Positions 13,270 to 63,720 of a stretch of 64,000 nucleotides of DNA are shown here, in pieces. The notes under the pieces were generated by a model, which saw nothing but the letters and a program-made list of their open reading frames with translations, was not told where the DNA came from and searched no databases. The stretch's first letter is position 1. The number at the start of each line of letters is the position of its first letter. The stretch is from Gemmatimonas sp. (GTDB lineage Bacteria > Gemmatimonadota > Gemmatimonadetes > Gemmatimonadales > Gemmatimonadaceae), in assembly GCA_021154325.1 (NCBI GenBank), contig JAJKIR010000220.1:1-64000 (forward strand). Reading direction: 5' to 3'. Made by a program: the position numbers and the translations under genes.

Positions 13270-14025
13270 ATGTCGCACTTCTTCTACGAGCCCACGGTCA
13301 CGCTGCTCGCCCGGCCGACCTTCACGACGCCCGAGCATCTGCCGGTGAACTACATCGGTGACAGCACCGACGGCGAGCGTCTCGCCGAGTTCGCGGGCCG
13401 CGTCTGCTACATGAGCCAGCACAATCCGGCGAAGCGCTCGACGCGCGAATATCTGGACAACATCAAGAAGCAGGGGCATGGCTCCGTGCTCGAGCATGCG
13501 AACTACACGCTGCTGCTCGAGGGCGTGAGCCGGTCGCTGACGCACGAGCTGGTGCGACATCGGGCGGGCTTCGCGTACTCGCAGCTCTCTCAGCGCTACG
13601 TCGACGAGTCCGAGGCGAGCTTCGTCATTCCGCCGGCGGTGATCGGCGACGAGGGTCTCGAAGGTCAGTGGCGCGAGCAGATCGAGCAGGCGCAGCGCGC
13701 GTACGTGGCGCTGGTCGAGAAGCTGATGGAGCGCTATGGCTGGGTCGCGGACCGCGTGCATCGGCGGAAGATGGCGCGCGAGGCGGCGCGGGCCGTTCTT
13801 CCGAATGCAACGGAGACGAAGATCGTCGTGACCGCGAACGCGCGCGCGTGGCGAACGATGCTGGAGCTGCGTGCGAGCGAGGGCGCCGAGCTAGAGATCC
13901 GTCGCGCCGCCGTCGCGATTCTCCGTCTTCTCCAGTGTGAAGCGCCAGGATTCTTCTCCGACTTCGAGATCTACTCCGCCGACGATCGGCGTGAGGCGGC
14001 GCGGGTGATCTACCACAAGGTGTGA
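13270..14025 (+). CDS. thyX: Flavin-dependent thymidylate synthase
   Basis: A 251-residue ThyX, which makes dTMP from dUMP using methylene-tetrahydrofolate and FAD. The signature region LVRHRAGFAYSQLSQRYVDE contains the RHR flavin motif and the downstream Ser/Arg/Tyr. Other conserved parts are GHGSVLEHANYTLLLEGVSR and RRKMAREAARAVLPNATETK. I chose the ATG at 13270, where the conserved sequence begins; a frame start 14 codons upstream is not supported. Its TGA stop is the first part of a seven-base repeat run, and an intrinsic terminator follows at 14056. Confidence 0.96.
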   Translation: MSHFFYEPTVTLLARPTFTTPEHLPVNYIGDSTDGERLAEFAGRVCYMSQHNPAKRSTREYLDNIKKQGHGSVLEHANYTLLLEGVSRSLTHELVRHRAGFAYSQLSQRYVDESEASFVIPPAVIGDEGLEGQWREQIEQAQRAYVALVEKLMERYGWVADRVHRRKMAREAARAVLPNATETKIVVTANARAWRTMLELRASEGAELEIRRAAVAILRLLQCEAPGFFSDFEIYSADDRREAARVIYHKV

Positions 14026-14120
14026 GCGGTGGTCGGTCGTCGGTGAATTCTGATTGCGACGAGCTGCGCTCGTCGCTTTTTCTTTTCACCGCTCACCGTT
14101 CACGGTCCACCGTTCACCGA
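14023..14120. repeat. Heptamer-repeat arms flanking a terminator
   Basis: Seven-base units run from the thyX stop codon: TGAGCGG, TGGTCGG, TCGTCGG, TGAATTC (14023-14050). After the terminator hairpin, five more units on the opposite strand sense follow: TCACCGC, TCACCGT, TCACGGT, CCACCGT, TCACCGA (14086-14120). The two arms are partly complementary, so they can extend the terminator hairpin. This is the same unit family as at 18349, 35299 and 45863. Confidence 0.75.
14056..14086 (+). terminator. Intrinsic terminator after thyX
   Basis: A perfect 8-bp stem (GCGACGAG with CTCGTCGC) around a 5-base loop, followed by a run TTTTTCTTTT. It lies 31 bases past the thyX stop and separates thyX from the ATP-grasp/KamA operon. 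Confidence 0.9.
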
Positions 14121-18348: not shown

Positions 18349-18505
18349 TGAACCGTTGTCGGTGAACCGTGAACGGTGAACCGTTGGCGGTGAACGGTGG
18401 ACGGTGAACGCTGATGGGGTGGCGAGAGCATTAGAGCTCCGCCACCCCATCAACGTTTATTCCCAATTCACCATCAACCGTCAACGGCCAACCGTCAACG
18501 GTTCA
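18349..18505. repeat. Heptamer arrays and long hairpin between convergent genes
   Basis: Nine consecutive seven-base units fill 18349-18411 (TGAACCG, TTGTCGG, TGAACCG, TGAACGG, TGAACCG, TTGGCGG, TGAACGG, TGGACGG, TGAACGC). A strong hairpin follows (18411-18452), with GATGGGGTGGCG paired to CGCCACCCCATC around a short AT-containing loop. Complementary units such as TCAACCG, TCAACGG and CCAACCG then run to the stop codon of the minus-strand gene, which is itself the TGA of a TGAACCG unit. It would act as a bidirectional terminator. Confidence 0.85.
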
Positions 18506-18925
18506 CTTGCGGATGACGATGATCACGCCCGAGCCGTGTCCGGTTCCGTAGCGCTGTGTTGCGTCCGTTCCGCTTAGATGCTGGATCTCCTTCACGTCCG
18601 TGATCGGAATCTGCGAGAGGGTGCTCGGTCCTCCCATTTTCGTCTGATCGACGTAGACGACCACGTCCTGGGGACCTTGGGTGATCGACGAAGACGCACC
18701 GCCGCGGTTCTGCAGGAAGCTCGGGCGCAGCCGCTGCACCGCCTGCAACGCGTTCTGGACATCGATCGTCGCCAGCTCTTCCTGGCTGATACGATCGGGA
18801 GAGCCCCGATGCTGCGACGCCTGCGACGCCTGCTGGCTCGCGCCCGCGCCGGAAGTCGATGAGGCACAGCCCGGCGCGGCCAGGGTGACGAGCGCGGCGA
18901 CGAGATGGAACGAGCGAATCTTCAT
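18503..18925 (-). CDS. Small plug-domain lipoprotein, copy 1
   Basis: A 140-residue exported protein with a signal peptide and lipobox (LVTLAAPGCASS, Cys about residue 20). The mature part looks like the plug domain of TonB-dependent receptors without a barrel: ISQEELATIDVQNALQAVQR, RLRPSFLQNRGG, DVVVYVDQTKMGG, IPITDVKEIQHLSGTDATQR and GTGHGSGVIIVI. I chose the ATG at 18925 at the signal peptide. It is a clear paralogue of the gene at 18985. Such proteins may bind partners at the outer membrane; the role is unknown. Its TGA stop is supplied by the adjacent heptamer array. Confidence 0.85.
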   Translation of the reverse strand: MKIRSFHLVAALVTLAAPGCASSTSGAGASQQASQASQHRGSPDRISQEELATIDVQNALQAVQRLRPSFLQNRGGASSSITQGPQDVVVYVDQTKMGGPSTLSQIPITDVKEIQHLSGTDATQRYGTGHGSGVIIVIRK

Positions 18926-21972: not shown

Positions 21973-22085
21973 GGGTTGCGGGTTGCGGGTTGCGGGTTGC
22001 GGGTTGCGGGTGAACGCAAAAAGGGCCGACGGTTTTCGTCGACCCTCTACTCTCTACTCTCTACTCTCTACTCTCTACTGTCTGC
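21973..22085. repeat. Two different heptamer arrays around a hairpin
   Basis: Five exact copies of GGGTTGC (21973-22007) are followed by GGGTGAA. After a terminator hairpin, four exact copies of TCTCTAC run from 22051 to 22078, followed by TGTCTGC. The TCTCTAC array and its CTGCCCG flank reappear at 57358. Unlike the convergent loci, the two arrays here are not complementary to each other. Confidence 0.85.
22016..22046 (-). terminator. Intrinsic terminator for the gene ending at 22107
   Basis: Read on the minus strand, a stem GGGTCGACG / CGTCGGCCC (one G-U pair) around a short A-rich loop is followed by CTTTTTGCG. It lies about 60 bases past the stop of the minus-strand gene and between two heptamer arrays. 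Confidence 0.75.
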
Positions 22086-22106: not shown

Positions 22107-22682
22107 TCAGTCTCCTTCCGCCTCGAACGTGAGGCCTTCCGCCTCGCGCATGCGGTCGAGCATGGTCTCGAGCGGTGCGAAGACTGGCGCGGTAAGCCCG
22201 ACGATGGGACCGATGGAGACCGTGATCGCGCGGCGAGCACCTTCTGGCCAATCGGGCATCGACAGCCCAGCCACAAGACGCCGAATCAACTGACCGCACT
22301 CGGCGAGCAGCCGTCCAGCGGTCGAGTTCAGAATCTCGAGTGGTATCTCGAGGTCTCGCGTCATGAGCTGACCCGTGGTCACATCGCGCCACGCCGCGTC
22401 ACCAATGGCGCCGCGTTCCGGCCAGACGCCGAGATGGCGAATGGATTCCATGTTGGCATCGGTCGAACGATGACACTCCACCGCAGCCGCAAGCGCGAGC
22501 GCGAGCGATTCGGCACTGGGCGCTCCGTAAAGAGTCACGATGTCGCGCGACGGGCGCTCCGCGGAATTCAGCGGAGACGGCACCGAGTTGACGTGCGCGA
22601 GCACCGGTGAGTGATCAGGGTTTTCCTCGAGCATGACGAGAACGTCCATGCCCTCCTCCTGAAGATGGTACTGCTCGATCAT
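22107..22682 (-). CDS. Hypothetical protein
   Basis: A 191-residue soluble protein starting MIEQYHLQEEGMDVLVMLEE, with an acidic N-terminus, central helices (SAESLALALAAAVECHRSTD) and a hydrophobic amphipathic end (AITVSIGPIVGLTAPVFAPL). The ATG at 22682 is preceded by GGGGAGGGGAG, a strong ribosome-binding sequence, which is why I reject the longer frame to 22814. No family recognised. It has its own terminator downstream, so it is likely a single-gene unit. Confidence 0.75.
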   Translation of the reverse strand: MIEQYHLQEEGMDVLVMLEENPDHSPVLAHVNSVPSPLNSAERPSRDIVTLYGAPSAESLALALAAAVECHRSTDANMESIRHLGVWPERGAIGDAAWRDVTTGQLMTRDLEIPLEILNSTAGRLLAECGQLIRRLVAGLSMPDWPEGARRAITVSIGPIVGLTAPVFAPLETMLDRMREAEGLTFEAEGD

Positions 22683-22858
22683 CGCGTCTCCCCTCCCCAC
22701 AGCCTCACGACACTGTGCAGCATGACTCCGGTGCGCGAGCAGAGCGACACCAGATCGAACCCGCTGACCTTCGCGATGTTCCAGTGAAACTGCTGATGAT
22801 ACGTTTGCAGTCACATCGCGGTTGCAACTCTGTCACGTTGCAAGTGCGGTCAGGTCTT

Positions 22859-31746: not shown

Positions 31747-31915
31747 AGCTATCAGTTATCAGTCCATAGTTATCAGGGGGTTCGGAACGAAGCGTTAATT
31801 GGGTGAGAGCGACTCGACGCACACTCAACCACAAACGCTTCGTTCCGAGATCCCTGATAACTATGGACTATGGACTGATAGCTCTCGGAAACGGACTATG
31901 GACTGATAGCTCTCA
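31747..31915. repeat. Inverted-repeat element built of heptamers, copy 1
   Basis: The left arm is TATCAGT, TATCAGT, CCATAGT, TATCAGG (31750-31777), then a GAACGAAGCGTT block. The right arm starts with AACGCTTCGTTC (about 31834-31845), then CCTGATA, ACTATGG, ACTATGG, ACTGATA, GCTCTCG, GAAACGG, ACTATGG, ACTGATA, GCTCTCA (31853-31915). The arms are complementary over about 45 bases. It lies between convergent stops at 31742 and 31928. A second copy with different central DNA is at 53195. Confidence 0.88.
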
Positions 31916-34239: not shown

Positions 34240-35301
34240 ATGACATATCGCACGAACCGCACGTCGATCATCGTCGCCCTCGCGCTCGGCGCCGCTGGCG
34301 CCTGCGGCCGCGAAGGCAATGGCGCCACCGTTACGAGCAGGACCGGTGCCCTGGCGCAGACCCGCGCTGGCGGGGCGGAGGGCGTGGCGAGCACCGGCTC
34401 GTCCCCCGTCGGCAGCACGACGGCGTCCTCGGCCGGCGACATCGCCAAACGCGCAGGCCGTCTCGACCCGAATCACCTCGGCCGCATCCCGATCCTCGAG
34501 TACCACGTCATCGGCGGTACGAAGAACGCGCTCTACACCCGAACCGTGGAGAGCTTCCGCAAGGACCTCGAGGACGTGTACGCGCGCGGCTACCGGCCGA
34601 TTACTGTTTCGCAAATGCTCGACAAGGACTTCCGCGACGTTCCCACGGGGATGTCACCGGTGATCTTCGTCTTCGACGATGCGTCTGCGGAGCAGTTCAG
34701 CTACATCGAGAACAACGGCTCGCTCGAGATCGATCCCACGAGCGGCGTGGGAATCTGGCTGGACTTCAAGAAGGCGCATCCGGATTGGAAGAATCGCGCG
34801 ACGTTCTGCATGCTGAACGGTGGTGCGGCGGGCCACAACTTCTTCGGCGACGGTCCGAGATGGCGCGGACAGCACAAGCAGTGGCGGCTACAAAAGGTGA
34901 AATGGCTCGCCGACAACGGATTCGAGCTCTGCGGCCACACGCTCTGGCACGCCATGCTCAACAAGTACTCGGACGCGGTGGTCCAGGAGCAGATCGCGCG
35001 CAACATCATGGGCATCGATTCCGCCGTCGCGGGCTATCGCGTGCGGACCTTCGCGCTTCCGTATGGCATCTGGCCGAAGAATCGCGAGCTCGCGTGGCAT
35101 GGCTCGTGGACGAATCCGAAGACGGGCAAGACGCAGAGCTACAGCTTCGACGCCGTGCTCGAGGTCTCCGGCGGACCCGCGCGCAGCCCGTTCGATCCGC
35201 AGTTCAATCCGCGGAGCATAACGAGAATCGAAGCGATCGGTGACGACATCAAGCACCAGCTCGATCGGCTGGACGCGACGAAGACACGATTCGTCTGGTG
35301 A
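34240..35301 (+). CDS. Polysaccharide deacetylase family lipoprotein
   Basis: A 353-residue exported protein with a signal peptide ending in a lipobox (ALALGAAGACGRE). A Thr/Ser/Gly-rich linker leads to a carbohydrate esterase 4 (NodB) domain. It has IPILEYHVIG at its start, the metal Asp pair in VIFVFDDASAEQF, the zinc His motif in LCGHTLWHAML and the later strand VRTFALPYGIWPKN. It would remove N-acetyl groups from peptidoglycan or another cell-surface glycan. The conserved TFDD motif reads VFDD. Its TGA stop is the first codon of a heptamer array that runs to the stop of the next gene. Confidence 0.88.
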   Translation: MTYRTNRTSIIVALALGAAGACGREGNGATVTSRTGALAQTRAGGAEGVASTGSSPVGSTTASSAGDIAKRAGRLDPNHLGRIPILEYHVIGGTKNALYTRTVESFRKDLEDVYARGYRPITVSQMLDKDFRDVPTGMSPVIFVFDDASAEQFSYIENNGSLEIDPTSGVGIWLDFKKAHPDWKNRATFCMLNGGAAGHNFFGDGPRWRGQHKQWRLQKVKWLADNGFELCGHTLWHAMLNKYSDAVVQEQIARNIMGIDSAVAGYRVRTFALPYGIWPKNRELAWHGSWTNPKTGKTQSYSFDAVLEVSGGPARSPFDPQFNPRSITRIEAIGDDIKHQLDRLDATKTRFVW

Positions 35302-35407
35302 TTGGTGGTTGGTGATTGGTGAACGTTGAACGGTGAACGGTGAACGGTGAACGGTGAACGGTGAACGGTGAACCGATCACCGTCCGGGGACCACGGACTG
35401 CCGATCA
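35299..35407. repeat. Heptamer array bridging two convergent stop codons
   Basis: From the stop of the deacetylase gene: TGATTGG, TGGTTGG, TGATTGG, TGAACGT, six copies of TGAACGG (35327-35368), then TGAACCG, ATCACCG, TCCGGGG, ACCACGG, ACTGCCG. From the other side, the TGA stop of the minus-strand gene at 35405 opens TGATCGG, CAGTCCG, TGGTCCC, CGGACGG, TGATCGG. The whole intergenic space is array, with no other sequence. Confidence 0.9.
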
Positions 35408-35992
35408 CGCTTTTCGCAAGGCCTGGAGCGTCGACTCGAGTGCGAAGCGGTGCTCGGGGCGAGTGGCTTCCGCAAGCAGACTCTCGTACGTGACGATTGC
35501 GAGATCGAGCGCCGCGGGATCGTCTTCGGCGCCGGCGAGGCTGGCGGCGTTGTCGGCGAGCGCGGCGCGCGCCAGCTGATCCTGCGGAAAGCGGCGCGCG
35601 ACCTGGCGCCAGCGCTCGACGCGCGCGCGGAGGTTCGATTCGGAGAGCGCCCACAGGTGCCAGGCACCGCGATTCCGCTCGTCCGCCTGCTTCGCGCGCG
35701 CCGCGAGCGCGCCGACCACCTCGGCGCCACGTCCGGTGAGCCAGTACGCATTCGCGAGGATCACCATCGCCTGTGCGTCGTTGGGGCGCCTGGCAACGAT
35801 GGCCTCGTACGCTGGGATGATGACCTCGGGCATGTCGGCATACGCGCGCGCGGAATGCCCGAGCTGTTCGGGATCGCTCCGTGCCGCGAGGGCGCGCACG
35901 CGATCGACGAGCGTACCGATGTTGGCGGTCACCCGATACTCTTCCACGATCTGCGCGAGATCGAGATCTGGCGCGGGAGCACTCGATTCCAT
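35405..35992 (-). CDS. TPR-like helical repeat protein
   Basis: A 195-residue soluble protein of paired helices with tetratricopeptide spacing: IPAYEAIVARRPNDAQAMVI, LANAYWLTGRGAEVVGALAA, RWRQVARRFPQDQLARAALA and LAIVTYESLLAEATRPEHRF. No signal peptide or membrane segment. It is a protein-interaction module; no partner can be named. It is transcribed divergently from the receiver-DHp gene, 48 bases apart, so the two may share regulation. Confidence 0.82.
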   Translation of the reverse strand: MESSAPAPDLDLAQIVEEYRVTANIGTLVDRVRALAARSDPEQLGHSARAYADMPEVIIPAYEAIVARRPNDAQAMVILANAYWLTGRGAEVVGALAARAKQADERNRGAWHLWALSESNLRARVERWRQVARRFPQDQLARAALADNAASLAGAEDDPAALDLAIVTYESLLAEATRPEHRFALESTLQALRKA

Positions 35993-36040
35993 GCAGAAAT
36001 ACTACTCGCCGAGTGTCGTGGAGTCAGTCCGAGCGCACTG

Positions 36041-36661
36041 ATGACGCCCGAAACGGAAAGCTTCGTACTTTTGCTGGTCGTGGAAGACGACAGTCGCGCC
36101 GAAGCACTTCCGCCGCGCCTGTCGATGGTTCTGCCACGGGCTTCGACGGTGACGGCAAACGTCGCCATGCTGGCCGAGGAGAAGCTTCCTCGGGCTGACG
36201 CGACGCTGGTCGATGGAGGAGCGAGCGCCAAGGCGACGGTCGACACGCTGCGGACACTGCGCGCGCGAGGATTCGAGGCACCGATTCTCGTCGTCACACC
36301 GGTGCCTGACGATGTCGCCTTACGAGCGGCGATGAACTCGTTGGGCGCGCGCGCGGTGTCGCGAGAGCTCGTCGATCGCTCGCCAGCGGAGTTGGCGGTG
36401 GCGATCACGGCCGCTCTCGATAGCGCCCCGGGCGTGACCGCGGAGCTCCGTCAGGCGCGACGGATCTTCGCCGCGGGACAGGCCGCACTGTCGCTGCAAC
36501 ACGCGATCAACAATCCGCTCGCGGCACTCCTGGCCGAAGCGCAACTGCTCCAGCTGGAAGAGCTGTCGGCGGAGCAGCGCGGCTCGGTGGACAGAATGGT
36601 CGAGTTGTGCAGACGGGTCGTCGCTCTCGTTAGACGCCTGGACGCTCTGACGGAGAGCTGA
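36041..36661 (+). CDS. Degenerate receiver fused to histidine-kinase DHp, no ATPase domain
   Basis: A 206-residue protein. Residues about 5-125 look like a response-regulator receiver (LLVVEDDSRAEAL, ATLVDGGAS with D58 at the usual phospho-site, ILVVTPVP, and a final helix). Residues about 140-205 are a histidine-kinase dimerisation helix pair with H154 in SLQHAINNPLAALLAEAQLL, the HEINNPL box with Ala for Glu. No catalytic ATP-binding domain follows; the protein stops after the second helix. It could be a phosphotransfer or dimerisation partner for a kinase encoded elsewhere. The ATG at 36041 is chosen at the receiver start. Confidence 0.82.
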   Translation: MTPETESFVLLLVVEDDSRAEALPPRLSMVLPRASTVTANVAMLAEEKLPRADATLVDGGASAKATVDTLRTLRARGFEAPILVVTPVPDDVALRAAMNSLGARAVSRELVDRSPAELAVAITAALDSAPGVTAELRQARRIFAAGQAALSLQHAINNPLAALLAEAQLLQLEELSAEQRGSVDRMVELCRRVVALVRRLDALTES

Positions 36662-44200: not shown

Positions 44201-45858
44201 CGTTAGGTCTGGTCGGAGCCGTGTACAAGGGAGATACGGTTCCCGAGCTGCACGGCACATTCGGCTATGAGCGCCGCGCTCTGACCACGCACCTCGACCT
44301 CCTCCGGCGCGGCGGCGCCCCAATGGCGACGCTCGCGGCGAATTTGCCCATCAACCTCGGGCTCAGCGGCGTCACAGGATCGCGACTCTTGCACGGGCCG
44401 ATATCCGCCGACCTCACAGCGGACAGCTTGCCACTCGGGCTCATTCCAGCCTTCACGGGCATCGTCAGCGACGTGCACGGCCAGGCCGCCGCGCAGGTGG
44501 CGCTGCGCGGAACGTTCGATAACCCGAGAGTCGCCGGCGGCCTGATGATCAACCGCGGCACCGTTCGGCTCAATCCGACGGGGATGTATCTCGACAACCT
44601 CGCCGGATCGGTGCGGATGGCGAACGACTCCGTGCGCATCGACTCGCTCGTCGGTCGCTCCGGCCGCGGCACGGTGAGCCTAACGGGAGGGATCCGCGTC
44701 GCGAGCATTCGCGATCCGAGCTTCAACCTCTTTCTCGTGGCGCACAACGCCGAGGTCCTGGACAACGACCGCGGACGCCTCAACGCCGATGCGGGACTGC
44801 GATTCACCGGACCGCTGGCGCGGCCGTATCTCAGTGGGCAGGTGCAGGTAACGAGTGGCGTCATCCAGTTCGAACCCTCGAGCCAACATGTCATCGGCGC
44901 GGGTGATCCGGACCTCTTCAACGCCGTCAAGGACACGGCGCTGATGCAGGACGATCAGCTCTTTCCAACGCCGTCGCCCATCCTCAAGAACATGCGCGTG
45001 GAAGTCGCGCTCGGCATCAGCCGTGATACGTGGGTTCGCAGCACCGACGCGAACGTCGAGATCTACACCGACTATCCGATCGAGATACACGTCGCCCAGG
45101 GGCAACCGGTGTTGACGGGCGCGGTCGGCACCGATCGAGGCGATTATACATTCCTCAGCAAACGCTTTCAGATCACCCGTGGATCGGCGACGTTCGTTGG
45201 CACGTCGGAATTGAATCCGACGCTCCAGGCGACGGGAGAATATCAGGTTCAGCTCGCGGGCGGCCCGGCGATGAACATTCAGGTGCTCATCGGTGGCACT
45301 CTCAAGAGGCCGAAGCTCACCTTGCAGAGCGACGCGCAACCGCCGCGGACACAGTCGGAGCTTTTGACGCTCCTCGCCTTCGGCTCTCCGGCCACTGACC
45401 TCATGCAGACGGAAGGGTCGAGCCTAACGACCAGCGGACCGGGCGGTCTCGTCGGACGAGGCGCGCAGGTGGCCATGACTCGTCTCGAGGGCGTGGCGGT
45501 CGGTGTGCTCTTCGAGCAGATTCAGGCGCAGGCGGGACGCGCCCTGGGTGCGGATCAGTTTTACATCTCGCCGGGAGATGCGCCCGAGCTCGTGAGCGGC
45601 ACGTCGTCCGGGTTCTCGCAGTTCATTCAGGGGACGCGAGTCGAAGGAGGCAAGTACCTCAACTCGCGCACCTTCCTCGCCGTACAGGAGTACAGCTATC
45701 TGCCCGGCGCGCGACTCGACTACCGCACCGGGACGGGCTGGCTGTACTCGGTATACACGCAACCGCAGGTGTTGCTGAACCAGCCGACGCTCGAGAGCCA
45801 GCCGTTCTTCCGGCGTCAGTCGGTTGGCGCCCGGGTGATTCGCGAGTGGAGATTCTAG
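41236..45858 (+). CDS. tamB: TamB-family translocation/assembly protein
   Basis: A 1540-residue AsmA/TamB-type protein. A single N-terminal membrane anchor (residues about 10-33) leads to a very long beta-rich groove of repeated segments, with the TamB/DUF490 domain at the C-terminal end (GDYTFLSKRFQITRGSATFV, QPPRTQSELLTLLAFGS, GRALGADQFYISPGD). Such proteins span the periplasm and work with TamA to move lipids or outer-membrane proteins. The start ATG overlaps the tamA stop (TGATG), so the two are coupled. It contains four exact CGTTAGGC copies. The C-terminus ends in aromatic RVIREWRF. Confidence 0.94.
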   Translation: MNPVVRRIGRVLLGIVTVLLGIVALAGIVVVVLTSTEWGHERVRRIALSQLQSRIHGKATIGRLSGNLLSGLTIHDFAISDSSGEPFIAAQEVSARYALGALIGKKIWLEDVRLVRPLIVLDRPPGGKWNYQRIFVSDTTSQQSTGPGFGSWIRFENVTVVDGDVVVRTPWSPGTSLSPSSRDSLIREALGGHGRAMVVQAAHSYGGAPPYQKVVELRSLNASLPMLRLADPNEKNRYAQVASLQMTALPFRPPAAVVTDMKGNFNFNNDSLWWRGVRAAMPASRVSGDGSYAFSSGDMLLTLRGAPAALADLRWLYPRLPAEGGGTLEFAMRWKGEVQDYTARNADVAVGATTVKGDFGITMSDTFALHDTNLRFANFDTRLAEQLIAGFKSPRRGSLSGRAALNGGKNALRVDADVAFADVTTGTSQVAALGVVGFGNGAVRANNLRLRLHPVQVELAKALAGNGLQLPVSGVVTGTATVSGDTRTRLAGNLDIAHDDRGYHSQLTGTAALRLARNGTAPWMDVNVIARPVSLAEIGRFAPAIGLQGSAVGPVRLTGSLANLAVSTDLRLPDRGRLVARGNVGLTGPTKRYDLAVGMYVFNVHTVLASGPVTSLTLTARAQGSGFSPATMNATFMADLAAGSRWDSLAVDTGSVRVAVANGLATFQKLQLSGAHTNIDVHGSFGLVANRTGTLSYIVQIDSLSALDRLLPHTGPDTGSYRPRPAVVARAVRRARADSARIARRTEVERLATGRPLPTLVVDTPKATPIALKGNVRLAGELTGNLQRFDTRGRLGASGLDVHGIAADTIMAMFAWTNARTPTSAIAVGLAGKNVAAGGFAFDSLRTNATFRFQDRGGRVELAVRQGDERDYGFKGDFFVRPDNRELRIANMQLRFDTTVWQATHPASIQMRPQGIAVQNLELRSGPTSRIYANGLLPSSGVGNFEVAVDNFQVGDLLDILQSDVDLQGFVTLHGSMQGTMAAPRLRGALGLVGAVYKGDTVPELHGTFGYERRALTTHLDLLRRGGAPMATLAANLPINLGLSGVTGSRLLHGPISADLTADSLPLGLIPAFTGIVSDVHGQAAAQVALRGTFDNPRVAGGLMINRGTVRLNPTGMYLDNLAGSVRMANDSVRIDSLVGRSGRGTVSLTGGIRVASIRDPSFNLFLVAHNAEVLDNDRGRLNADAGLRFTGPLARPYLSGQVQVTSGVIQFEPSSQHVIGAGDPDLFNAVKDTALMQDDQLFPTPSPILKNMRVEVALGISRDTWVRSTDANVEIYTDYPIEIHVAQGQPVLTGAVGTDRGDYTFLSKRFQITRGSATFVGTSELNPTLQATGEYQVQLAGGPAMNIQVLIGGTLKRPKLTLQSDAQPPRTQSELLTLLAFGSPATDLMQTEGSSLTTSGPGGLVGRGAQVAMTRLEGVAVGVLFEQIQAQAGRALGADQFYISPGDAPELVSGTSSGFSQFIQGTRVEGGKYLNSRTFLAVQEYSYLPGARLDYRTGTGWLYSVYTQPQVLLNQPTLESQPFFRRQSVGARVIREWRF

Positions 45859-45939
45859 TCGGTGAACGGTGATCCGTGATCCGTGATCCGTGAGCGGTAG
45901 TTGTCCACGGTCCACGGTCCACCGTTTACCCGTTCACGG
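45856..45939. repeat. Heptamer array bridging tamB and dipeptidase stops
   Basis: After the tamB TAG: TGAACGG, three copies of TGATCCG (45870-45890), TGAGCGG, TAGTTGT, two copies of CCACGGT, CCACCGT, TTACCCG, TTCACGG. The TAA stop of the minus-strand gene lies in the TTACCCG unit. Left and right halves are partly complementary. Confidence 0.85.
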
Positions 45940-53194: not shown

Positions 53195-53208
<14 letters not shown>

Positions 53209-53391
53209 TCCATAGTTATCAGGTAAGAAGGAACGAAACGTTGATGGGATGAGGTGCAGATTCCTCGTCGCTTCGCTCCTCGGAATGACACCCTCCCTGT
53301 CATCCCGAGCGGACGCGAGGGATCTGCTCTTCATCCAATCAACGCTTCGTTCCGAACTCCCTGATAACTATGGACTATGGACTGATAGCTG
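53195..53391. repeat. Inverted-repeat element built of heptamers, copy 2, with nested insert
   Basis: The left arm is TTATCAG, TCCATAG, TCCATAG, TTATCAG (53195-53222) and GAACGAAACGTT. The right arm is AACGCTTCGTTCCGA (from 53341), then CTGATAA, CTATGGA, CTATGGA, CTGATAG (53361-53388). The arms match copy 1 at 31747. The middle (about 53255-53335) differs: it holds a second palindrome with GCTCCTCGGAATGACA and TGTCATCCCGAGCG facing each other and CGAGGGATCTGC beside it. The element sits between convergent stops at 53208 and 53395. Confidence 0.88.
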
Positions 53392-57357: not shown

Positions 57358-57406
57358 GCTCTACTCTCTACTCTCTACTCTCTACTCTCTACTCTCTGCC
57401 CGGTAC
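57358..57406. repeat. TCTCTAC heptamer array ending at a start codon
   Basis: GCTCTAC, four exact TCTCTAC copies (57365-57392), TCTCTGC and CCGGTAC; the ATG of the acyl-CoA dehydrogenase is the next base. The same array with a similar CTGCCCG flank occurs at 22051-22090. Here it lies in the leader, on the translated strand, and leaves no room for a normal ribosome-binding site. Confidence 0.88.
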
Positions 57407-62047: not shown

Positions 62048-63636
62048 CTGCCAGCGCTGTCGTCACCGCGCGCCCGAGCGTCACGATCAGCGGCCTCGGC
62101 CCCAAGCGCGACCGCGCCGATCCGTGCACGGTCGTGATCTTCGGGGCGATGGGCGATCTCACCAAGCGCAAGCTGATGCCCGCGCTGTACGAGCTCATGA
62201 AGGAGGGGCTCGTCGATCCGGAGTTCGCGGTGCTCGGCGTCGGCCGCGAGTCGTGCGACAACGACGACATGTTTCGCGCGCGCATGCGCGAGTCGATCGA
62301 GCAGTCGGACGAGGTCCATGGCTTCGACCCGGCACTCTGGAACTCGTTATGCGAGCGGCTGCACTACACCTGCGTCGAGCTCACGGACGGCAAGGAGTAC
62401 TCGAAGATCGACGCGCGCCTCAGCGAGATCGAGGCGAAGCGCGCACCCGAGGAGCGCAATCGGCTGTTCTATCTCGCGGTGCCGCCAAGCATCTTCGAGC
62501 CGATCGTGCGCAACCTCTCGGAGAGCGGCCTCGCGCCGCGCACGAGGGATGCGGGCGTGCGGCCGTGGGTGCGCGTCGTCGTCGAGAAGCCGTTCGGCCG
62601 CGACCTCGAGACCGCGACCAACCTGAATCAGCTCGTCCTCAGTCTCTTTGCCGAGCATCAGGTCTTCCGCATCGATCACTACCTCGGCAAGGAGACGGTG
62701 CAGAACGTCCTCGTTCTGCGCTTCGCGAACTCGATCTTCGAGCCGCTCTGGAATCGGCAGTGGATCCACCACGTGCAGATCACCGCGGCCGAGGACGTCG
62801 GCGTGGGGACACGCGGCCGTTACTACGAGGAGGCGGGCGTCGTTCGGGACATGTTCCAGAATCACCTGCTGCAGCTGCTCGCGTTGACGGCGATGGAGCC
62901 GCCCTACACCATGAGCGCGGGTGCGGTGCGTGACGAGAAGGTGAAGGTGCTCAAGTCGGTGCGCTGGCTCGACTCCGAGGCGATCCCGCGGAACGCCGTG
63001 CGGGCGCAGTATCGCGCCGGCCCGATCAATGGAAAGCTCGTCAGCGGATACATCGAGGAAAAGGACGTGGATCCGAGCTCCACGACCCCGACGTACGCCG
63101 CCGTTAGGCTTTACGTCGACAACTGGCGCTGGAACGGCGTGCCGTTCTATCTCCGCTCCGGCAAGCGAATGAAGAAGCGCGTCTCCGAGATCGCGGTGAC
63201 TTTTCGATCACCGCCGCATCTCATGTTCGGCCATCAGACGCGCGGGGTGCTGCAACCGAACACGCTCGTCATGCGCGTGCAGCCTGACGAGGGAGTGAAC
63301 CTCAACTTCGAGGTGAAGGTCCCCGGCGCCGCCGTCGCGCTCACCTCCGAGGTCGAGGTGGCGCCGGTGGACATGGATTTCACCTACGACGAGGTCTTCG
63401 GCGAGACGTCGGCGCCCGCGTACGAGACGCTTCTCCTCGACGTCATGATTGGCGAGGCGACGCTCTTCACACGCAGCGACGAGGTCGAAGCGGCGTGGCG
63501 CGTGATCGATCCGCTCATCCACTACTGGGAGGAGCATCCACCGGATCAGATGCCGACGTACGCCGCCGGCACCTGGGGTCCGCGCGAAGCCGAGGAGCTG
63601 ATCGTGAAGGACGGTGTAAGGTGGAGAGAGCTGTAG
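62044..63636 (+). CDS. zwf: Glucose-6-phosphate 1-dehydrogenase
   Basis: A 530-residue dehydrogenase for the first step of the oxidative pentose phosphate pathway. The NADP loop is CTVVIFGAMGDLTKRKLMPA. The active-site motif is VFRIDHYLGKETVQNVLVLR, preceded by VRVVVEKPFGRDLETATNLN. It continues with EAGVVRDMFQNHLLQLLALT and the beta region FYLRSGKRMKKRVSEIAVTF. It is somewhat longer than usual (about 490-510), mostly at the N-terminus. It is the last gene of the cyclase-HAD-gnd-zwf operon, and its TAG stop abuts a GAGTGGC array. Confidence 0.97.
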
Positions 63637-63720
63637 AGTGGCGAGTAGCGAGTGATGAGTGACGAGTGAAAACTGATGAGTGACTTCTACTCGCCACTCA
63701 TCACTCGCCACTCGCCACTA
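63634..63720. repeat. GAGTGGC heptamer hairpin between convergent stops
   Basis: From the last base of the zwf TAG: GAGTGGC, GAGTAGC, GAGTGAT, GAGTGAC, GAGTGAA, AACTGAT, GAGTGAC (63636-63684). Then, on the other strand sense: TTCTACT, CGCCACT, CATCACT, CGCCACT, CGCCACT, ending at the TAG of the minus-strand gene (63718). The halves are complementary over about 30 bases, so the RNA from either gene would end in a long hairpin. Confidence 0.88.

Follow-up and report, generated by a model that had tools for sequence, protein, structure and literature searches.

Heptanucleotide STRR repeats are a feature of heterocystous cyanobacteria, and REP elements, another class of dispersed repeat, combine a conserved sequence with RAYT transposases. 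Among long simple repeats, heptamers are reported to be the most abundant in many bacteria, for which slippage of the polymerase may be responsible (Mrazek et al. 2007, as relayed in the relevant part of PMC4679880). In Xanthomonas, according to the sections of Rehm et al. 2015 (PMC4692102) drawn on here, GGGAATC heptamers form arrays genome-wide, often as close inverted pairs; they lie near or overlap stop codons with the G-rich strand sense, are rare in divergent gaps and in coding DNA, and occupy loci of which 83% are common to two species. The same sections describe Nostoc GGGGA(C/T)T repeats with few paired, invertible sites. In the extracts concerned, the TAACTGA repeats of Beggiatoaceae consist of one unit, lying mostly upstream of starts and with one inverted pair only (PMC4679880), and Chloroflexus aurantiacus carries a single species-typical heptamer, (GATAGRA)n, in 22 satellites (PMC6749651). 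For heptamers in Gemmatimonadota, a literature search found no paper.

The arrays described here, from a soil bacterium (Gemmatimonas sp.) of the Gemmatimonadaceae, are of the GGGAATC-like kind, which is already known; what sets them apart is the presence of several palindromic dialects in one genome, replaced across species. With the Xanthomonas repeats, as far as those sections characterise them, they share genome-wide dispersal, proximity to and overlap with stops, scarcity in coding and divergent DNA, and close inverted pairs. Unlike them, the host has several unit families rather than one unit type, three-G tracts are mostly absent (30/161 arrays have them), and units change or are absent at the small number of orthologous ends compared, as opposed to the 83% of shared loci in Xanthomonas. 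Period 7, an intergenic position and genome-wide spread are common to the host arrays, cyanobacterial STRR and the Nostoc repeats, whereas the units and the host phylum differ. The likeness to Beggiatoaceae TAACTGA, in the portion of PMC4679880 concerned, lies in the period and in all-frame stops restricting gene overlap; for (GATAGRA)n, the corresponding portion of PMC6749651 mentions no association with stop codons or with hairpins, unlike the situation in the host. Like REP/BIME sequences, the arrays are extragenic palindromes at gene 3' ends in many copies, but no RAYT was found in the 79% complete genome, and units and cores are unrelated between copies. Compared with an intrinsic terminator, the GC-rich stem close behind the stop is present and the U-tract is missing. 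Several palindromic dialects per genome with turnover between species are not described in those parts of the heptamer literature with which we compared them (Xanthomonas, Beggiatoaceae, Chloroflexus). The preliminary description of this stretch knew of no heptamer family tied to convergent gene ends; on this point it is corrected by the Xanthomonas GGGAATC repeats, published near gene ends (PMC4692102).

The window, i.e. the whole stretch of 64,000 nucleotides analysed, has its flagship locus between two convergent stops (TGA of the + gene at 35299-35301; TCA, or TGA on the - strand, at 35405-35407; 103 bp between). Six exact TGAACGG copies start at 35327, 35334, 35341, 35348, 35355 and 35362, all in phase with the stop at 35299 (offset 28 = 4x7) and accompanied by variants, as stated in the preliminary description. 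For the right-hand neighbour, the gene caller picked a + ORF (35450-36661), which we rejected, as it is only 50-53% conserved, versus ~75% for the overlapping - ORF 35405-35992. Within the window, 7 is the sole period in excess, with 117 dense positions versus 0-1 for periods 2-6 and 8-13. Every other locus at which the design was said to recur does carry it, with period-7 content only partial at 14023, 31747 and 53195 (Table 1). A right half complementary to the left had been claimed for most loci. Judged against the shuffle maximum, inverted repeats are strong at four of them (18345/18503, score 30 vs 12; 63636/63718, 27 vs 11; 31742/31928, 37 vs 13; 53208/53395, 48 vs 12), but weak at 45858/45926 (15 vs 13), at 14025/14132 (13 vs 11) and at the flagship itself (35301/35405, 13 vs 10), which is nearly one-armed, with a weak hairpin. 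Two further, non-convergent sites had escaped notice: 21973-22083 in a tandem gap, whose two arms carry different, non-complementary units, and 57359-57397 in a divergent gap. A longer repeat, made of CTATGGA units and a GGAACGAAGCGTT stem, is common to 31747-31883, 53203-53380 and positions 13292-13445 of locus L041 elsewhere, and the palindrome enclosed at 53203 is REP-like, of the TCATCCCGAGCG... type.

Table 1. Heptamer arrays, arms and neighbouring genes in the window
Feature	Coordinates	Strand	Remarks
Flagship array, ~4 GGTGATT/GGTGGTT then ~7 GGTGAAC, single phase	35296..35373	+	Contains + gene stop TGA 35299-35301
Short, badly matched right side of flagship, CGATCACCGTCC...CCGATCA, ending in - gene stop	35374..35408	.	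Stem score 13, z -3.0
Polysaccharide deacetylase-like gene (PF01522; PDA), 3' end bears flagship array	34240..35301	+	Pfam
Convergent gene, no Pfam match, real	35405..35992	-	~75% identity in both same-genus genomes
Left arm, GGTGAAC-family units, 3 bp past stop of lysine-2,3-aminomutase-like (radical SAM, KamA-like) gene	18349..18411	+	
GC-rich core, terminator-like hairpin TGATGGGGTGGCG...CGCCACCCCATCA between heptamer arms	18412..18452	.	
Right arm, reverse-complement units CAACCGT/CAACGGT, extending to - gene stop	18468..18506	-	
Left arm GGTGAAC/GTGATCC, 3' of TamB-domain gene	45860..45893	+	
Right arm, GTCCACG units, entering end of M20 peptidase gene	45903..45930	-	
Left arm GAGTGGC/GAGTGAC, 3' of glucose-6-phosphate dehydrogenase gene	63636..63669	+	
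Right arm, 29/31 positions pairing with left arm 63636..63669	63689..63719	-	
Left arm, CTATGGA-type heptamers and GGAACGAAGCGTT	31747..31807	+	
Right arm of 31747 hairpin	31824..31883	-	
Left arm, repeat family as at 31747, surrounding TCATCCCGAGC-type palindrome	53203..53290	+	
Right arm of 53203 hairpin	53298..53380	-	
Weak left arm, end of ThyX-like gene	14022..14046	+	
Right array, TTCACCG units	14085..14119	-	
Array GGGTTGC x5.6, tandem gap downstream of - ORF 22107-22814	21973..22011	+	
Array CTCTACT x5.6 (GAGAGTA on -), 23 bp past stop of - ORF 22107-22814	22045..22083	-	
Single array CTCTACT x5.6 (GAGAGTA on -), 9 bp upstream of acyl-CoA dehydrogenase start, divergent gap	57359..57397	-	

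The assembly screened beyond the window is a 79% complete Gemmatimonadaceae MAG of 4.74 Mb in 241 contigs; the window itself is assigned to this family by named relatives of its KamA-like protein. Our sample of the assembly (1.62 Mb) combined parts taken at even steps with others picked for carrying arrays, and genes were predicted with a home-made codon-model script. The genome-wide excess of period 7 is clear: at one threshold, 121 strong arrays have this period, against 0-9 for every other period excepting the multiple 14, and an unbiased sub-sample of 0.58 Mb gives a density of 53 period-7 arrays per Mb. Contigs C25, C80, C100, C122, C132, C144 and C197 of the assembly (G000) start or stop within heptamer arrays; the arrays therefore interrupt assembly, and the longest are probably missing.

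Where do these arrays lie? Of 610 gaps that adjoin a gene 3' end and measure 30 bp or more, 82 (13%) hold one; by gap type, arrays are present in 16.8% of convergent, 12.7% of tandem (p=0.28) and 7.9% of divergent gaps, and arrays per kb are more numerous in gaps containing a gene 3' end than in divergent gaps (p=0.003). As convergent and tandem gaps are similar and both exceed divergent ones, the association is with gene ends and not with convergence, and the proposed tie to convergent genes as such is not supported. In tandem gaps, the array starts at a median of 4.5 nt past the stop and ends 42 nt ahead of the next start, and 66% of arrays lie within 10 nt of the stop, versus 36% under uniform placement (maximum 54%, 2000 trials). 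Arrays lying entirely within genes are few (8/161). They do, however, reach into gene ends: the array overlaps the gene's stop at 50% of junctions if its unit has stops in all frames, and otherwise at 17%. The flagship array is in register with the stop codon because it supplies that stop, and in the relative G007 an M20 peptidase gene finishes within its own GTGACTC array, its last codons and stop being heptamer units. A growing repeat can thus give genes new stop codons and C-termini.

The host genome has seven unit families (GGTGAAC, GGTGCTA, GGTGRTT, GCGGGAC, GAGAGTA, GAGTGRC and GGGTTGC), and two dialects are mixed in mosaic arrays at 21/163 loci, often in a single phase as at 35296. Growth in seven-base steps, as proposed in the preliminary description, would fit both the in-phase arrays and these mosaics. 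Pattern searches spanning up to 40 relatives found the host dialects to be private or genus-level, with few matches in other genera. Match numbers in the host and the two same-genus genomes, respectively, were 63/0/0 for GGTGAAC, 99/9/38 for GGTGCTA, 42/8/0 for GAGAGTA and 44/0/0 for GCGGGAC. The same gene end can carry unlike units: the PDA end bears GGTGAAC in the host, CGGGACT in G018, GGCGCTC in G017 and none in G001, whilst the M20 end bears TGTTGGC in G008, GAGTCGT in G024 and GTGACTC in G007. We predicted that units known first from a single such end would be amplified genome-wide, and this was found for GGCTGTT (69 matches in G008) and GTGACTC (127 matches in G007), each with 0-1 in each of 24 other genomes. 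At 122 orthologous ends, period 7 was found at 8-9 (two being the host's own), versus 0-0.2 in shuffles. A word can also recur, since the kamA end of L143, in another genome, bears the GGTGAAC dialect as in the host. The pattern reaches beyond the phylum, as unlike heptamer arrays (an AGTTAAG hairpin at ~1438-1510 of L178 and ATAATGG at ~4340-4420 of L180) follow what looks like one same gene in Ignavibacteria. Many words thus share one length, layout and place, within a genome and across genera, which makes the role of the period separable from that of the sequence.

In two-armed loci, a G- or purine-rich 5' arm is followed by its reverse complement as 3' arm; ~40% of loci have a G-rich arm plus a reverse-complement C-rich arm, and many are one-armed. 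One dialect occupies both strands in 63 family calls, whereas G and C arms are outright different at 3 loci. In the finer order of their unit variants, the two arms of a locus do not mirror each other. We considered and rejected templated copying from arm to arm, locus by locus, as a general rule: the own right arm is the best partner of the left arm in only 7/49 loci, and arms from elsewhere within the dialect pair with it equally well or better.

Such layouts could suggest that the arrays are selected bidirectional terminators or 3'-end protectors, as the preliminary description proposed, the hairpin halting polymerase or blocking 3' exonucleases and heptamer growth extending the stem. We consider this possible, though doubtful. 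The arms do fold into hairpins, with GC-rich stems of 25-45 bp immediately behind stops, and folding in tandem gaps reaches a median z of -4.6 against shuffles with arrays and -0.6 without. Convergent gaps fold strongly with or without arrays (z -6.9 and -5.8, respectively), so heptamer hairpins there replace ordinary ones. Some arms surround a terminator-like hairpin, as at 18412-18452, L055, L040, L065 and the kamA end of L143, and in Xanthomonas, according to part of PMC4692102, starts or ends of transcripts fall within G4-capable GGGAATC repeats more often than within control repeats. However, a U-tract is almost absent 3' of array stems (1.70 T per 8 nt, versus 2.54 for ordinary hairpins and 1.37 in the background), and only 4% of these stems are followed by at least 5 T in 8 nt. 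The excess of G·U over A·C in the genome's ordinary 3' hairpins (38:20) is likewise absent from array stems (53:60; p=0.024, with small counts and pooled cutoffs that differ, at score 14 for tandem and 20 for convergent gaps). Both tests speak against a strong RNA-level role. Many arrays, including most of the flagship, are moreover one-armed, and orthologous ends are often without an array. Once transcribed, a hairpin may nonetheless pose a modest barrier at the RNA 3' end, and gene ends that carry a different array, or none, provide natural replicates for testing the effect of a hairpin on transcript ends.

Mobile elements of the REP or MITE kind, in which whole hairpins would be moved by a transposase such as RAYT, would also account for dozens of palindromic, extragenic copies at 3' ends, and the CTATGGA loci (31747, 53195 and L041 13292) have a common stem sequence. 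Yet Y1_Tnp (PF01797, RAYT) was not found in the 79% complete genome, the cores of the main dialects are non-homologous beyond few cases, and unit number varies freely; we find this origin unlikely. Xanthomonas GGGAATC and Nostoc GGGGATT repeats have been put forward as G-quadruplex elements, and here, as in Xanthomonas, arrays that follow a stop tend to have their G-rich strand in sense orientation (54/76). Four runs of three G are nevertheless confined to 30 of the 161 arrays, with runs of at most 2 in the commonest units (GGTGAAC, GGTGCTA and GAGAGTA), and we rate this idea as very unlikely. Still less is to be expected of the arrays serving a DNA- or RNA-binding protein as its sites: the fixed 7-base spacing and the numerous loci would suit one, but a single recognition sequence does not agree with several unrelated units in one genome, nor with a unit that differs between species at a given gene end. 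That many words share one form makes any single-sequence explanation by G-quadruplex or protein site look unlikely for these arrays. An artefact of metagenome-bin assembly, to which the contigs ending within arrays might point, is scarcely credible, as many independent Gemmatimonadota assemblies show the form, including the complete G018 (four contigs, 100% complete), and so do Ignavibacteria.

On balance, we favour as probable, though far from assured, that the arrays are slippage-driven, species-private heptamer satellites acting at the DNA level, which settle at 3' ends and capture stops. A seven-base word would be multiplied in tandem, probably via replication slippage, and the resulting dialect would spread by copying to the 3' ends of many genes, where copies in both orientations would often enclose a short loop or an existing terminator hairpin. 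Selection against arrays in coding DNA and promoter regions would leave them directly after stops, where tolerance, rather than strong function, would keep them; for words that include a stop, growth of the array into a gene end could provide a new stop codon. Between species the word is replaced, whilst period 7, inverted layout and location are retained. The satellite reading is in keeping with loops that are not homologous between loci. Against it, one dialect recurs behind dozens of genes although its flanking sequence does not travel with it, slippage alone would hardly yield the same dialect on both arms, and the folding of tandem gaps (z -4.6 versus -0.6) could mean selection for RNA hairpins. 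Could the words instead be actively written? A speculative possibility, less likely than not, is a copying process in Gemmatimonadaceae that would set inverted pairs of a private 7-base word behind dozens to hundreds of genes and periodically swap the word. If true, it would amount to concerted evolution of a bacterial satellite system, in which the form – period 7, palindromic, at stops – is inherited and the sequence is not.

Other repeats keep company with the heptamers. GCGGGAC-type heptamer arms enclose a palindromic core of ~130 bp, MITE-like in appearance, at L052 (10134-10327) and, in the opposite orientation, at L037 (15483-15663). Period 8 is enriched in other Gemmatimonadales loci (42.6 per Mb), and period-8 arms flank or replace the terminator after kamA at L130 (11137 onward) and L171 (982 onward). 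Also after kamA, L142 (11194 onward, two-armed) and L183 (765 onward, one-armed) carry CCACAGAGGCACAGAGA-type repeats, which resemble another dispersed repeat kind.
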